A stretch of DNA of 49,335 nucleotides from Deinococci bacterium (lineage in GTDB: Bacteria > Deinococcota > Deinococci > Deinococcales > Trueperaceae). This document shows positions 42,152 to 49,335 of the stretch, piece by piece (the first letter of the stretch is position 1; the number at the start of each line of letters is the position of its first letter). The notes below the pieces were generated by a model. The model did not search any database. It saw only the letters and a list, made by a program, of their open reading frames with translations, and was not told the DNA's origin. Position numbers and translations under genes: made by a program. The stretch is from positions 1-49,335 of the forward strand of contig JASBRS010000037.1 in assembly GCA_030149325.1 (NCBI GenBank), read 5' to 3'.

Positions 42152-43021
42152 TCACTGACTCCGCGGATCCAGGGCGTCGCGGAGGCTGTCTCCGAGGAGA
42201 TTGAAGGCGAGCACGGTGACGAAGATGGCGACGCCGGGCTCGATCGATAGATAGGGGGCCGAGTACAGATAGGTACGTGCCTGGTTGATCATCGCACCCC
42301 ACTCCGGGCTCGGCGGCTGTGCCCCCAAGCCCAGGAAACTCAGCGTCGCGGCCGTGAGGATGCTGGTGGCCAGACGCAGGGAGGCGTACACGATCAGCGG
42401 AGAGAGGATGTTGGGCAGGATGGTGCGGCCCAGGATGCGGCCGTGGCCCGCCCCGACGGCCAGGGCCGACGACACGTAGTCGGCCTCGCGCACCGCCAGC
42501 ACGGCGCCGCGCGTGATGCGTGCGAAGGTGGGCACCGAGAACACCGCGACCGCCACGATGACGTTGATCAGGCTGGTGCCCAGGGCGGCAACGATGGAGA
42601 TCGCCAGCAGGATGCCGGGGAAGGCGATGAGGACATCGTTCACCATCATGATCGGGCGATCGAGGCGGCGGAAGTAGCCCGCCAGCAGACCGAGGCTCAC
42701 CCCCACCAGCAGGCCGAGCAGCACCGAGGTGATGCCGACGGTGAGGGAGATACGAGCGCCGAAGAGCATGCGGCTGAGCTGGTCACGTCCGAAGGCGTCG
42801 GTCCCCAGCAGGTGGCCGGGCGTCCCGGGCGCCTTCAACACGGCGGCGTAGTCCTGGTAGTAGGGGTCGGCCGGCGACAGCAGCGGCGCCAGCAGGGCAG
42901 CGAGGGTGACCAGGACGGCGAGGGTGGCGCCGACCATGAAGTGGGGGCTGCGGCGCAGGCGCCCCAGCACCTTGGAGCCCCGGCGGGCGCTCGTCGACGG
43001 GCGTAGCGAGACGGTGCTCAT
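42152..43021 (-). CDS. Peptide ABC transporter permease, DppC-type
   Basis: A 289-residue permease with an N-terminal cytoplasmic segment (RRGSKVLGRLRRSPHFMVGA) typical of the OppC/DppC N-terminal domain, then about six helices. HLLGTDAFGRDQLSRMLFGARIS is family-diagnostic, here seen as LLGTDAFGRD and FGARISLTVG. The EAA loop is READYVSSALAVGAGHGRIL. It overlaps dppB by 4 nt and precedes ggt by 14 bp. No ATPase gene is in the operon. Confidence 0.9.
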   Translation of the reverse strand: MSTVSLRPSTSARRGSKVLGRLRRSPHFMVGATLAVLVTLAALLAPLLSPADPYYQDYAAVLKAPGTPGHLLGTDAFGRDQLSRMLFGARISLTVGITSVLLGLLVGVSLGLLAGYFRRLDRPIMMVNDVLIAFPGILLAISIVAALGTSLINVIVAVAVFSVPTFARITRGAVLAVREADYVSSALAVGAGHGRILGRTILPNILSPLIVYASLRLATSILTAATLSFLGLGAQPPSPEWGAMINQARTYLYSAPYLSIEPGVAIFVTVLAFNLLGDSLRDALDPRSQ

Positions 43022-43956
43022 GCGTAGCGGATGGTGGGGTTGAGGAGGGCGTAGGAGAGGTCGACCAGCAGGTTCACGAGGACGAAGGTGGTGGCGATCA
43101 GCACCACGCTCCCCTGGACCACGGCGTAGTCGCGCGCCAGGATGCTGTCGACCGCCAGGCGGCCGACGCCGTTGATGGCGAACACCGACTCCGTGACCAC
43201 GGCGCCGCCCAGCAGCGCGCCGAAGTTCAACCCGAGCACGGTGATGACGGGGATCATGGTGTTGCGCAGGGCATGGCGGAAGAGGACCGCGCGCTCCGGC
43301 AGGCCCTTGGCGCGCGCCGTCCGGATGTAGTCCTGGCCGAGCACGTCGAGCATGCCGCTGCGCGTCAGCCGCGCCACCAGCGCCATCCCGCCGGTCCCCA
43401 GGGTGACGGCGGGGAGGATCAACGATTTGAGCCCGTCGGCGCTCAGGAAGGGGTGGTGGTAGCCCGCCACCGGGAACCAGCCGAGGTCGACGGCGAACCA
43501 GATGATGAGCAGGATGCCGAGCCAGAAGTTGGGGATCGACACGCCCAACAGCGAGACGTTCATGAGCGCCAGGTCGGTGAGGCTGTTGGGGCGGGTCGCT
43601 GCCATCACCCCCAACGGGATGCCGATCAGCGTGACCAGCATGCTGGTCAGGGCCAGCACCGCGGTGTTGGGCAGGCGGACGGCGAGCATGCTCCGCACGC
43701 TCTCGCGCCGCTGCAGCGACTCGCCCAGGTCGCCGTGCACCAGGTCCCAGAGGAAGGTGCCGTATTGGACGTAGAGGGGCCGGTCCAGGTTGAGCCGTTG
43801 TCGGATGCTGGCGATCTCCTGCGCCGTCGCGGTGGGCCCCCCGATCAGCTCCGCCGGGTCGCCGGGGGCGAGGTGGAGGATCAGGAACGTCAGGACGGTG
43901 ACGCCGAGCAGCACCGGGATCGCTTCGAGCAGGCGCCTGAGGCTGTAGGTCAGCAC
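43018..43956 (-). CDS. Peptide ABC transporter permease, DppB-type
   Basis: A 312-residue permease starting RRLLEAIPVLLGVTVLTFLI, with PGDPAELIGG and GTFLWDLVHGDLGES, as in DppB/OppB. The EAA loop is ARAKGLPERAVLFRHALRNT and the C-terminus reads DLSYALLNPTIRYA. It has about six helices. It forms the channel with the DppC-type permease that follows, overlapping by 4 nt. It is separated from the binding-protein gene by 60 bp holding a hairpin. Confidence 0.92.
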   Translation of the reverse strand: MLTYSLRRLLEAIPVLLGVTVLTFLILHLAPGDPAELIGGPTATAQEIASIRQRLNLDRPLYVQYGTFLWDLVHGDLGESLQRRESVRSMLAVRLPNTAVLALTSMLVTLIGIPLGVMAATRPNSLTDLALMNVSLLGVSIPNFWLGILLIIWFAVDLGWFPVAGYHHPFLSADGLKSLILPAVTLGTGGMALVARLTRSGMLDVLGQDYIRTARAKGLPERAVLFRHALRNTMIPVITVLGLNFGALLGGAVVTESVFAINGVGRLAVDSILARDYAVVQGSVVLIATTFVLVNLLVDLSYALLNPTIRYA

Positions 43957-43999
43957 GGCTCGACGTCACCCGTCCCGTTCACGAGAGGCCTGGGGTCGC

Positions 44000-44017
44000 G
44001 TGGCGGGGGTCCGCCAC
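44000..44017 (-). terminator. Hairpin after the first binding-protein gene
   Basis: GTGGCGG and CCGCCAC form a 7-bp stem with a 4-nt loop right at the stop of the binding-protein gene. Such hairpins often lower permease expression relative to the binding protein. Confidence 0.45.
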
Positions 44018-45510
44018 TACGGCATGGTGGCGTTCGCGATCGACCACTCGTTGTTGGGCAGCAACGTGATGCCCGAGACATCGGCGCGATGGGCGATCAG
44101 CGCGACCCCGTCGTAGAGCGTCACCCACGCCACGTCCTTGAGCATCAGGGCGTTGGCCTGGTTGAGCAGGTCGAGCCGCTTCTGCTGATCGGTGGTCGCG
44201 CGGCTCGCCTCGATGAGCTGGTTGGCCGCCGGGTTGTCGTAGGCCGAACGGTTGGAGGCGCCGATGTTGGCCGAGTCGAGGTTGGGGTAGACGAGCTCCG
44301 AGCCGTCGGCGGTGCTGTTGGTCCAGCCCAGCAGGTAGAGGTCCTGCTCGTACTTCTGCGTGGCCGACAGGTAGGCCCCCCACTCGACGGTCTTGATGGT
44401 GGTGGGGATGCCGGCCTGACTCAGCTGCCCCTGCAGGATCTGGCCCACCCGCGGGTAGTTGCCGGTCTGCGGCACCCACAGGGTGACGGGTCGGGCGTCC
44501 TTGACCTGGCTCCACAACTGCTTGGCCTTGGCCGGGTCGTACGGCGTGCAGTTCGACTCGACGCCCTCGACGTAGCCGAACACCTGCGGGCCGATGATGC
44601 TGCAGTCGGGGTTGGCGAGCGGCGCCAGCAGCTTGGAGATGACGCTGATGTCGACGGCCGAGGCGACCGCCTCACGCGCCGTCTTGTCCTGCCACAGCGG
44701 CTCCTTGTAGTTGAAGCCGAGGTAGAACACCGGCGTCCCCGGCTTCATGACCACGTCGATGGCCTTGTTCTGCTGCAGCCGGCTCACCAGCTCCGGCGGC
44801 ACCGTATCGATGAGCTGGACGTCGCCGCGCTCCAGCAGGGCGACCTGGGTGTTGACGTCGGGAACCACTCGGATCACGAAGGTGTCGATGGCGGGCGCCT
44901 TGCCCCAGTAGTTGGGGTTGCGCACCAGGGTGATGTGGTCGCCCGACACCCATTCCTTGAGCATGTAGGGGCCGGTGCCGACCGGGTTCTTCATGAGGTC
45001 ACCGTACTTGGCCACGGCCGTGGGGCTGACGATCGCCGCGTTGGCGTGCGCCAGGGCGGCCAAGAAGGCGCCGTAGGGCGCCGAGGTGGTGATCTTGACG
45101 GTGTAGTCGTCGATGACGTCGATGCTCTTGATGGGCTTGAGGAGGCTGGCGCGCGGCGCGCCGACCTTGGGATCGAGGATGCGCTCGAAGGTGAACTTCA
45201 CGGCCTCGGCGTTGAAGGGCGTGCCGTCCTGGAAGGTCACGCCGTGACGCAGGTGGAAGATCCAGGTGTTGGCATCGGGGGTGTCCCACGAGGTGGCGAG
45301 CCAGGGGATGAGCTGGTTGGTGGCGGGGTCGCGCGCGACCAGGTTCTCGTAGATGTGGCGCTCGGGAACGGACGACACGGAGTCGTTGGTGAGCACCGGG
45401 GAGAGGCCGACGGCATCGGCCTGGGCGGCGTAGGTGAAGGTCGCCGCCGCCGCCGATGCGACGAACGCACCGGCCAGGACGATCGCGATGATACGGACGA
45501 GGCGTTTCAT
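44017..45510 (-). CDS. Peptide ABC transporter substrate-binding protein (family 5)
   Basis: A 497-residue exported binding protein with a Sec signal peptide (VRIIAIVLAGAFVASAAAA) and no lipobox. The order is normal for SBP_bac_5: LIPWLATSWD, FHLRHGVTFQDGTPFNAEAV, NPVGTGPYMLKEW and YDPAKAKQLW in the first 330 residues, then GQILQGQLSQAGIPTTIKTV, LGWTNSTADG and NQANALMLKDVAWVTLYDG at the end. It serves as an internal reference for the permuted protein at 47717. Its ATG overlaps the gntR stop (ATGA). Confidence 0.92.
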   Translation of the reverse strand: MKRLVRIIAIVLAGAFVASAAAATFTYAAQADAVGLSPVLTNDSVSSVPERHIYENLVARDPATNQLIPWLATSWDTPDANTWIFHLRHGVTFQDGTPFNAEAVKFTFERILDPKVGAPRASLLKPIKSIDVIDDYTVKITTSAPYGAFLAALAHANAAIVSPTAVAKYGDLMKNPVGTGPYMLKEWVSGDHITLVRNPNYWGKAPAIDTFVIRVVPDVNTQVALLERGDVQLIDTVPPELVSRLQQNKAIDVVMKPGTPVFYLGFNYKEPLWQDKTAREAVASAVDISVISKLLAPLANPDCSIIGPQVFGYVEGVESNCTPYDPAKAKQLWSQVKDARPVTLWVPQTGNYPRVGQILQGQLSQAGIPTTIKTVEWGAYLSATQKYEQDLYLLGWTNSTADGSELVYPNLDSANIGASNRSAYDNPAANQLIEASRATTDQQKRLDLLNQANALMLKDVAWVTLYDGVALIAHRADVSGITLLPNNEWSIANATMP

Positions 45511-46229
45511 GGCTCCGTTACCTCCCTCGGGCTGATGCCCTGGTCGCGAACGATGCTGCGTTCGACGGCCTCCAGATGGTCGAGCACGGCGCGGCGAGCG
45601 GCGTTGGCGTCGCCGCCGATGATCGCCTCGGCGATCGCCGTGTGTTGCTCGAGCGCCAGCACCGGCTGGTCGCCCGTGAGCATGCGCGCACGCAGCTCGC
45701 TGAGCATGGCCCGCAGGGTGTCGAGCACCTGCAGGACGGTAGCGTTGCCCGCCACGCGGGCGATCAAGCGGTGGAACTCGACGTCCTCGCCGAACAGGCG
45801 GCGGCCCGAGCCGACGATGCGCGCCTGCCGCTCGAGCGCGGCGCGCAGGTCGGCGGCGTCGGTCTCGCTGCAGCGTTCGGACGCCAGCACGGCGATCTCG
45901 GGCTCGAGGATGCGCCGGAACTGCAGCAGGTCCTCGGCGAGTTGCGGCTGGTTCTGGAGGAGCGTCCGGAAGGGCATCGCCAGCGCTTCGCCGCCGGGGT
46001 TGCGGACGACCGTGCCGTCGCCCTGCCGCACCTCCAGGTAGCCGAGCAACTGCAGGTCGCGGATGGCGTCGCGGAGGGTGGTGCGCGAGACGCCGAAGTG
46101 GTTGGCGAGGTCGCGCTCGGGGGGCAGGCGGTCACCGTCCGTCAGCTCGTTGTCGCGGATCATCGCCAGCAGGGCGTCGCGGACCTCGTCCGAGACCTTG
46201 CGGCGTTTGATGGTCTCGCGGGTGTCGAT
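45507..46229 (-). CDS. FadR-type GntR regulator (FCD), probable ATC start
   Basis: A repressor of about 240 residues. The winged helix runs ETIKRRKVSDEVRDALLAMI to PPERDLANHFGVSRTTLRDA and LLGYLEVRQGDGTVV. The FCD ligand domain includes FGEDVEFHRLIARVAGNATV. No ATG, GTG or TTG exists where the family starts. However, ATC at 46229 sits 6 nt after a strong GGGAGG. The open frame runs on to a GTG at 46367, but this lacks a ribosome site and adds 46 Pro/Ala-rich residues. I favour the ATC start with caution. It heads the operon gntR / binding protein / dppB / dppC / ggt, which it probably represses. Confidence 0.75.
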   Translation of the reverse strand: MDTRETIKRRKVSDEVRDALLAMIRDNELTDGDRLPPERDLANHFGVSRTTLRDAIRDLQLLGYLEVRQGDGTVVRNPGGEALAMPFRTLLQNQPQLAEDLLQFRRILEPEIAVLASERCSETDAADLRAALERQARIVGSGRRLFGEDVEFHRLIARVAGNATVLQVLDTLRAMLSELRARMLTGDQPVLALEQHTAIAEAIIGGDANAARRAVLDHLEAVERSIVRDQGISPREVTEP

Positions 46230-46382
46230 GGCGTGCCTCCCTGCCCTCGCCCCGTCGCGAGGGGATGATGGAACCGTTGGGGCTGCGGCGCCGGCGTGAA
46301 CGCCAGCGCCGCAGCTTTGGGTCCGTCCGGACTCGTCCGGTGTCGGGTGGGGGGGAACCGGCACCACGGAACAAAGGTTGTA

Positions 46383-47598: not shown

Positions 47599-47627
47599 TT
47601 GACAACCGCGGGCTCCGTCGGTAGGCT
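47599..47627 (+). promoter_or_regulatory. Promoter of the permuted binding-protein gene
   Basis: TTGACA (47599-47604) and TAGGCT (47622-47627) are 17 nt apart. The leader of about 80 nt holds a possible GGTG...CACC hairpin and an AAGGGAGG ribosome site at 47703-47710 before the ATG at 47717. Confidence 0.7.
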
Positions 47628-47716
47628 AGCGACAACAGACCGTGTAAAAGCTTCTGATTTGCAACACCTGGTGACAACGGCGGTTGCCGTGTCGCACCCC
47701 CCAAGGGAGGTAGTGC

Positions 47717-49228
47717 ATGCGTCGGTGGAAATGGCTCCTCATACTCGTTTTGGTGCTTCTGGTGGGGGTTGCGAGCGCCAAGAAGCTGTCGTTCGTGCTC
47801 GACACGACCGACAATCGCGCGGACGAGGCCCAGGCGATTGCGGCCCAGCTGCAGCAGATCGGCATCGACGTGCAGGTGCGCGTCTGGAAGAGCAACGTGT
47901 TGCTCGACGCCATCAAGGCCGGCAGCCGGCAGGCGTACACCACGGATTGGGGGAGCGCCTACTTCGATCCCTTCGACCTGGGCATCCCCAAGCTGACCAC
48001 CGGGGGGCGGGGCAACTACTCGTTCTACAGCAATCCCAAGGTCGACGAGGACTTCAAGGTCGCCTCGACGACGACGTCCGACGCCCCTCGAGCGGCCGCC
48101 TACAAGGACGCCCAGCAGGTCATCTTCAACGATGCGCCCTGGATCTTCGGCTACGTGCTGCAGAACATCGAGGCCTCCTCGAACGCGGTGCAGGGCTGGG
48201 GCCCGGCGGCCGACAACAGCGAGTCGCTGGCCGGCGTGAGCGTGCAGGGCGGCAGTAGCCTGGTCCTGGGGATGCGCACCGACCAGATCGTCACCTTCGA
48301 CCCGGCGATGTACCGGGATCGCGACACCGAGGCCGTGCTGCGCAACATGTTCGACTCGCTGGTGACGCACACCCTGGCCGGCGAGGTGGTGCCGCAGCTG
48401 GCGACGTCCTGGAGCAAGGTCGACGACAAGACCTACGACTTCACACTCCGGAGCGGCGTCACCTTCCAGAACGGCGATCCGCTCACGGCGGACGACGTGG
48501 TCTACACCTTCCACCGGATCCTGACGCCGGGCGCCGTCAACGGCGAGACCAGCCCGCGCGCCGGCCTGCTCGGCCCCCTCGACCATGTCGAGAAGATCGA
48601 CGCCACGCACGTCCGCTTCGTGTACAAGGACCCCTTCCCGGAGTCGCTCCTGCTGCAGGCGCTGGTCCACTTCCAGATCGTGCCCCAGGCGTACATGGAG
48701 AAGGTCGGCGTCGACGCCTTCAAGAAGGCGCCGATCGGCAGCGGTCCGTTCCAGTTCGTGCAGGGCAGCCTCGACTCGCAGATCGTGCTGAAGCGCTACG
48801 ACGGCTACTGGGGCGGACCCGCCAAGCTCCAGCAGGTCGTCTTCCGGATGATGCCGGAGCCTTCCACGCGCGTCGCCGCGCTGCTCTCGGGCGAAGTGCA
48901 GATCATCCAGGCGGTCCCGGCCGATCTCGTGGCTCGCCTGAAGAGCGCGCCGTCCATCACCGTCAAGACCGCGGAGGGCACGCGCGCGTACCAGATCGAG
49001 CTCAACAACAAGGTCGCACCCTTCAACGATCCGCGCGTCCGCCAGGCCCTCAACCTCGCCATCGACTGGGACAGTATCCTGAAGAACATCTACCTCGGCT
49101 ACGGGCAGCGGCTCGCCACCGCGTTCCTGCCCAGCGGCTTCGGCTACGACGCCTCGCTCGAGCCCTACCCGTACGACCCCGCACGGGCCAAGGAACTGCT
49201 CAAGCAGGCAGGATACGACGGCAACTAA
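47717..49228 (+). CDS. Circularly permuted family-5 substrate-binding protein
   Basis: A 503-residue exported protein with signal peptide MRRWKWLLILVLVLLVGVAS-A, cleaved near residue 21. Residues 23-165 are what normally ends such proteins: DEAQAIAAQLQQIGIDVQVR, TDWGSAYFDPFDLG, NYSFYSNPKVDEDF, DAQQVIFNDAPWIFGY. Residues 166-181 look like a linker. Residues 182-503 are what normally begins them: TFDPAMYRD, EVVPQLATSW, FTLRSGVTFQNGDPLTADDV, APIGSGPFQF, DPRVRQALNLAIDW, and last YDPARAKELLKQAGYDGN before TAA. In normal proteins that last motif leads into the segment now found at the N-terminus. It has its own promoter and ribosome site. No permease follows within the window. Confidence 0.8.
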   Translation: MRRWKWLLILVLVLLVGVASAKKLSFVLDTTDNRADEAQAIAAQLQQIGIDVQVRVWKSNVLLDAIKAGSRQAYTTDWGSAYFDPFDLGIPKLTTGGRGNYSFYSNPKVDEDFKVASTTTSDAPRAAAYKDAQQVIFNDAPWIFGYVLQNIEASSNAVQGWGPAADNSESLAGVSVQGGSSLVLGMRTDQIVTFDPAMYRDRDTEAVLRNMFDSLVTHTLAGEVVPQLATSWSKVDDKTYDFTLRSGVTFQNGDPLTADDVVYTFHRILTPGAVNGETSPRAGLLGPLDHVEKIDATHVRFVYKDPFPESLLLQALVHFQIVPQAYMEKVGVDAFKKAPIGSGPFQFVQGSLDSQIVLKRYDGYWGGPAKLQQVVFRMMPEPSTRVAALLSGEVQIIQAVPADLVARLKSAPSITVKTAEGTRAYQIELNNKVAPFNDPRVRQALNLAIDWDSILKNIYLGYGQRLATAFLPSGFGYDASLEPYPYDPARAKELLKQAGYDGN

Positions 49229-49335
49229 CCCGTATCGCCGCCGTCGGGCCCCCCCGCGCGGTTCCGCGGCGCCCCCCCCGCACCCCCAGGGGTGAAGGGG
49301 CCCGGGCCCCCCCCCGCGCGGCGGCGGCGGCGTGA
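49229..49335. other. Low-complexity GC-rich sequence at the window end
   Basis: After the stop codon the sequence is dominated by long C and G runs (C7, C8, C9) with palindromes such as GGGGCCCGGGCCCC (49297-49310) and CACCCC-CA-GGGGTG (49281-49294). The latter could be a terminator stem, but the runs and the terminal GGC repeats look like a poorly resolved sequence end. No gene is seen. Confidence 0.5.

Follow-up and report, generated by a model that had tools for sequence, protein, structure and literature searches.

A naturally circularly permuted solute-binding protein of the DppA/OppA class in Trueperaceae and other bacteria

Natural circular permutation among ABC-type binding proteins has been described for TpMglB-2 (Tp0684) of Treponema pallidum, which is classed as "Type Ic / Cluster Bc" and has homologous proteins in treponemes as well as in Gram-positive bacteria (PMC4990184). 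Its authors suggest that the permutation is linked to membrane anchoring (PMC4990184). The family described here is likewise a natural circular permutant among binding proteins with many bacterial homologues. However, TpMglB-2 has a Type I/cluster B sugar-binding fold and a different breakpoint, whereas the present family falls in cluster C and has linear sisters whose genes occupy an equivalent operon; all sequence matches and the structure matches listed for the protein are of the SBP_bac_5/DppA class. The family appears to be a permutation event separate from TpMglB-2, within the DppA-like cluster C. A literature search on natural permutation in solute-binding proteins (SBPs), with incomplete coverage of subscription journals, returned biosensor-engineering papers and TpMglB-2, and no report of this family.

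The other close comparison is with the DppA/OppA proteins themselves (SBP_bac_5, PF00496, cluster C). Both parts of the new protein are homologous to these over their full length, and its gene likewise directly precedes dppBC(DF)-type permeases, but the order of the chain is permuted, the new termini lie in lobe 2, and the old termini are joined. With a probability of roughly 0.92, the protein is a functional, naturally circularly permuted periplasmic SBP of the DppA/OppA class derived from a linear ancestor.

Layout of the permuted gene

The window, a stretch of 49,335 nucleotides from a Trueperaceae genome (GCA_030149325.1), is the whole of one contig (C54) of the 102 in that genome. Its plus strand carries at 47717-49228 an open reading frame for a 503-residue SBP_bac_5 protein with an ATG start, a TAA stop, and the ribosome-binding site AAGGGAGG. 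The chain runs from the signal peptide to the C-terminal part (about 22-176) and then to the N-terminal part (about 177-503), with AGYDGN as the last residues before the stop. The features of the gene and its surroundings are as follows.

47599..47646, plus strand: upstream block TTGACAAC-N25-ACAACAGnnCGTGTA, probable promoter -35 element and operator, from aligned upstream DNA of six Trueperaceae genomes
47717..47779, plus strand: signal peptide, residues 1-21, MRRWKWLLILVLVLLVGVASA; relatives share the start position, the ribosome-binding site, and the hydrophobic stretch
47780..48244, plus strand: former C-terminal part (residues 22-176), covering the later portion of lobe 2 and the C-terminal segment that returns
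48245..48256, plus strand: new junction, residues 177-180, old C-terminus to old mature N-terminus; placed by comparison with linear tails and heads, a junction-only profile, and the model
48257..49225, plus strand: former N-terminal part (residues 181-503), with YDPARAKELLKQAGYDGN at its end
49226..49228, plus strand: TAA stop, new C-terminus within lobe 2; equivalent stop in complete relatives
49229..49335, plus strand: GC-rich intergenic tail and assembly break; the operon resumes on contig C75

The Pfam SBP_bac_5 profile scores 308 bits against the protein (curated cut-off 32.4), and positions 1-280 of its 368 match residues 223-502. A second match, at DNA 47789-48004 (about residues 25-96), corresponds to profile positions 292-364, so that these precede 1-280 and a linear order from 1 to 368 is absent. 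Since the profile order is swapped with homology throughout, the protein is filed as a permuted derivative of SBP_bac_5. In profile annotation it passes for an ordinary SBP, since the one best domain match conceals the permutation.

A sequence-only reading of this DNA had laid the protein out as signal peptide, C-terminal part, linker, and N-terminal part. The order of the parts stands, with the Pfam matches running C then N, but the proposed linker at residues 166-181 does not: most of it belongs to the normal C-terminal tail GWGPAADNSESLAGVSV, which aligns to linear sisters up to residue 176, and the true new bridge amounts to only about 2-4 residues. The start and stop, which that reading had taken to be genuine together with the signal peptide, recur at the same positions in five other Trueperaceae genomes, and the stop that closes the N-terminal part after YDPARAKELLKQAGYDGN has its equivalent in complete relatives. 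The window gene is a genuine and complete SBP that is naturally circularly permuted: both halves are complete, their order is swapped, and the old ends are joined.

The upstream block is also found before the gene in the five other Trueperaceae genomes (L020-L024), and CTGTTG/CAACAG forms an inverted repeat in most relatives. A generic promoter and terminator scan found nothing. Elsewhere in the window, at 42152-46367, a second SBP_bac_5 gene, linear in order, lies on the minus strand and has a GntR-type regulator and permease genes as neighbours.

Distribution, linear sisters, and origin

The five Trueperaceae relatives share order, start, and stop with the window protein at 66-68% identity, and one of them (L020, in G007) lies on a single contig of 2.92 Mb. 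When a collection of contigs with one genome per species was scanned, 28 loci emerged, spread over Deinococcota, Bacillota, Armatimonadota, and a "Deltaproteobacteria" MAG; 27 are permuted end to end, and two (L056 and L057) share their genomes with L023 and L021. The search of related genomes proposed from the sequence returned the same order both within the family Trueperaceae and at further complete loci elsewhere. Among the scan loci, L075 contains a run of N and L065 has one in-frame stop, which splits the permuted gene in a MAG (L065:5324-6916) and is either a sequencing error or a mark of a pseudogene. The 28th locus, in Meiothermus rufus, is a gene split by an apparent insertion element: the C-terminal part (L080:7980-8486) is followed by a transposase-like reading frame, and a shortened N-terminal part lies on another contig (L025:122-883).

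A junction-only profile of 92 residues, for which a full match is impossible in linear proteins, was found in 7 of 111 Deinococcota genomes, in one of them as a fragment, in 25 of 398 genomes of Bacillota, the phylum of L059 (E<=1e-38 over the whole junction), in 9 of 43 from the phylum of L062 (Armatimonadota), and in 1 of 297 from the phylum of the "Deltaproteobacteria" MAG (L082). Each of the 14 genomes checked has one permuted copy. Between L021 and L023, dN/dS is 0.029/0.587, and the permuted gene is therefore under purifying selection.

The Bacillota search also yielded 12 further genomes with both parts in normal order, each fetched and checked, and the junction-only profile separates the 25 permuted Bacillota genomes from these 12, whose linear order was verified. 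The linear sister family (L107-L118; e.g. G504:C33, G394:C1, G240:C1) resembles the permuted one in the sequence of each half, in its DppBCDF operon, and, in some members, in AtuA/C26 neighbours; it differs in its N-then-C order and in the lipobox and linker that precede the N-terminal part (lobe 1). Residues 64-392 of the linear L107 protein are 56% identical to window residues 177-499, and its residues 387-548 are 47% identical to window residues 15-176, where the first few matched residues belong to the signal peptide. The two halves abut exactly on the linear sisters, with all core residues kept. Linear proteins have a tail like ...NWEPSPDSRINLHDVGLK and a mature start like ...GKTLVVGL, while the permuted junction reads ...NWQPAMDSRINLHDVGL-TR-GDTIVVGM and is without the lipobox linker of the linear forms.

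For phylogeny, permuted sequences were rotated into normal order and a maximum-likelihood tree was built with 36 permuted rows. With all rows included, the 36 permuted rows fall on one side of a branch (support 86/99), and permuted and linear sisters group together (100/100). When the tree was repeated without long-branch outgroups, the permuted branch received 100/99 and the linear sisters formed two lineages, as would be expected if the permuted form had arisen from within the linear family. The trees indicate that all permuted proteins come from one old event. Circular permutation, as first read from the sequence, is thus upheld by order and ends conserved in many genomes, by halves that abut exactly on linear sisters, and by a single permuted clade.

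The ancestor would have been an ordinary linear SBP in an operon of the dppA-dppB-dppC type. In the simplest route, tandem duplication and in-frame fusion would have been followed by in-frame loss of the first N-terminal part and the last C-terminal part. The old C-terminus would thereby be joined to the old mature N-terminus through 2-4 residues, and new ends would be opened in the loop after the lobe 2 helix AKELLKxAGY, leaving the signal peptide in front of the C-terminal part. This duplication-then-loss route is plausible; no intermediate was found among the genomes searched.

Operon context and the contig edge

DppB follows the permuted SBP in all five Trueperaceae relatives, about 60-230 bases on, and in 26 of the 28 scan loci, the exceptions being L076 and the interrupted L080. 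The same holds for 11 of the 12 linear sisters, with L116 cut by a contig end. DppB and DppC, often with DppD and DppF, accompany both forms, and a C26 peptidase or AtuA is a neighbour in some. The window SBP is encoded with DppB/DppC-type permeases, as are SBPs of peptide ABC importers (neighbours identified by Pfam), and the DppB proteins of permuted and linear operons form a group of their own, separate from five further DppB-like proteins in the window genome. Genes of the AtuA family (PF07287) and of C26 type (gamma-glutamyl hydrolase-like) recur near permuted and some linear SBP operons (L133, on C75; L058, L062, L080, L123, L115), and may point to the substrate.

The exception L076 (7971-13646) is a sensor kinase in which the permuted SBP_bac_5 is the first module, joined to three SBP_bac_3 domains, PAS, HisKA, HATPase, and a receiver; its reading frame continues past the stop position of the other permuted proteins. 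This fusion, which lacks a neighbouring permease within the stretch examined, would suit a permuted protein that does not transport and was retained for another role, for instance as a sensor module. Such a reading of the family is improbable, as nearly all other members directly precede DppB/DppC, just as the linear sisters do.

The sequence-only reading had offered as an alternative an SBP that carries an additional C-terminal lobe in front and whose real 3′ end is missing or misassembled at the low-complexity edge. Only 107 bases of GC-rich, low-complexity sequence indeed separate the stop from the contig end, but relatives on unbroken contigs terminate at the same position and continue directly into DppB, within about 60-230 bp. 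The window genome has its own DppB on contig C75, 93 bases in from the end, with DppC and a C26 peptidase behind it and AtuA encoded on the complementary strand. This alternative fails and has a negligible chance of being right. Equally remote is a chimeric assembly of two adjacent SBP genes, conceivable in a MAG of 102 contigs with many SBP_bac_5 genes, as the identical junction occurs in independent assemblies, including contigs of 2.5-3.6 Mb (G007, G179, G218, G493, G313, G468). Truncation and chimera are both ruled out by the junction and stop that relatives share and by C75. GC content is high at both contig ends (C54 and C75), and in several relatives a GC-rich hairpin lies between SBP and DppB; the assembly break between SBP and permease genes is likely due to this interval.

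Predicted structure, function, and significance

The circularly permuted protein is predicted to keep the two-lobed DppA-like fold. An AlphaFold2 model from 29 permuted sequences has a pLDDT of 91.3 and a pTM of 0.86, with pLDDT of about 86-97 across the new junction. Sequential structure aligners cover only about residues 173-503 of the model, equivalent to about 1-343 of linear DppA-like proteins; over this N-terminal part, Z is about 24-28 across 309-325 residues against linear SBPs and 26 against DppA (1dpp, residues 1-343). For the C-terminal part, the match to PDB family-5 SBPs (chain residues about 346-505) is by sequence only. A model of a linear sister, tried as a control, was rejected (12 sequences, pLDDT 65), and no permuted relative was seen among the PDB matches listed. 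The breakpoint lies near residue 370 of the E. coli DppA precursor, in the C-lobe; by computed residue numbers, this falls in what we take to be lobe 2 (domain III) of DppA.

So folded, the permuted chain would bind solute between its lobes and deliver it to the adjacently encoded DppB/DppC permease, a transport function to which operon position and conservation point. In DppA, ligand is bound by R383 and D436, the latter being the Asp that contacts the ligand (PMC12136057). In an alignment through H. pylori DppA, the D436 position is Ala in the window protein, and R34 is nearly invariant in permuted proteins, its equivalence to R383 being uncertain. As D436 is apparently not conserved, the ligand may differ from an ordinary dipeptide. 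The NCBIfam DppA equivalog model gives 166 bits, against a cut-off of 1005.

Several Bacillota members have a lipobox cysteine before the C-terminal part, and in these lobe 2, instead of lobe 1, would be the point of tethering. It is conceivable, though doubtful, that the permutation was adaptive, in that moving the anchored N-terminus from lobe 1 to lobe 2 altered tethering, opening, and docking to the permease, and that the form was kept across several phyla and reused as a sensor module in a histidine kinase.

A permuted form with an extant linear sister in the same operon offers a good setting for studying how such rearrangements arise and spread. With permease and gene order constant and chain order altered, folding, tethering, and docking are directly comparable between the two.
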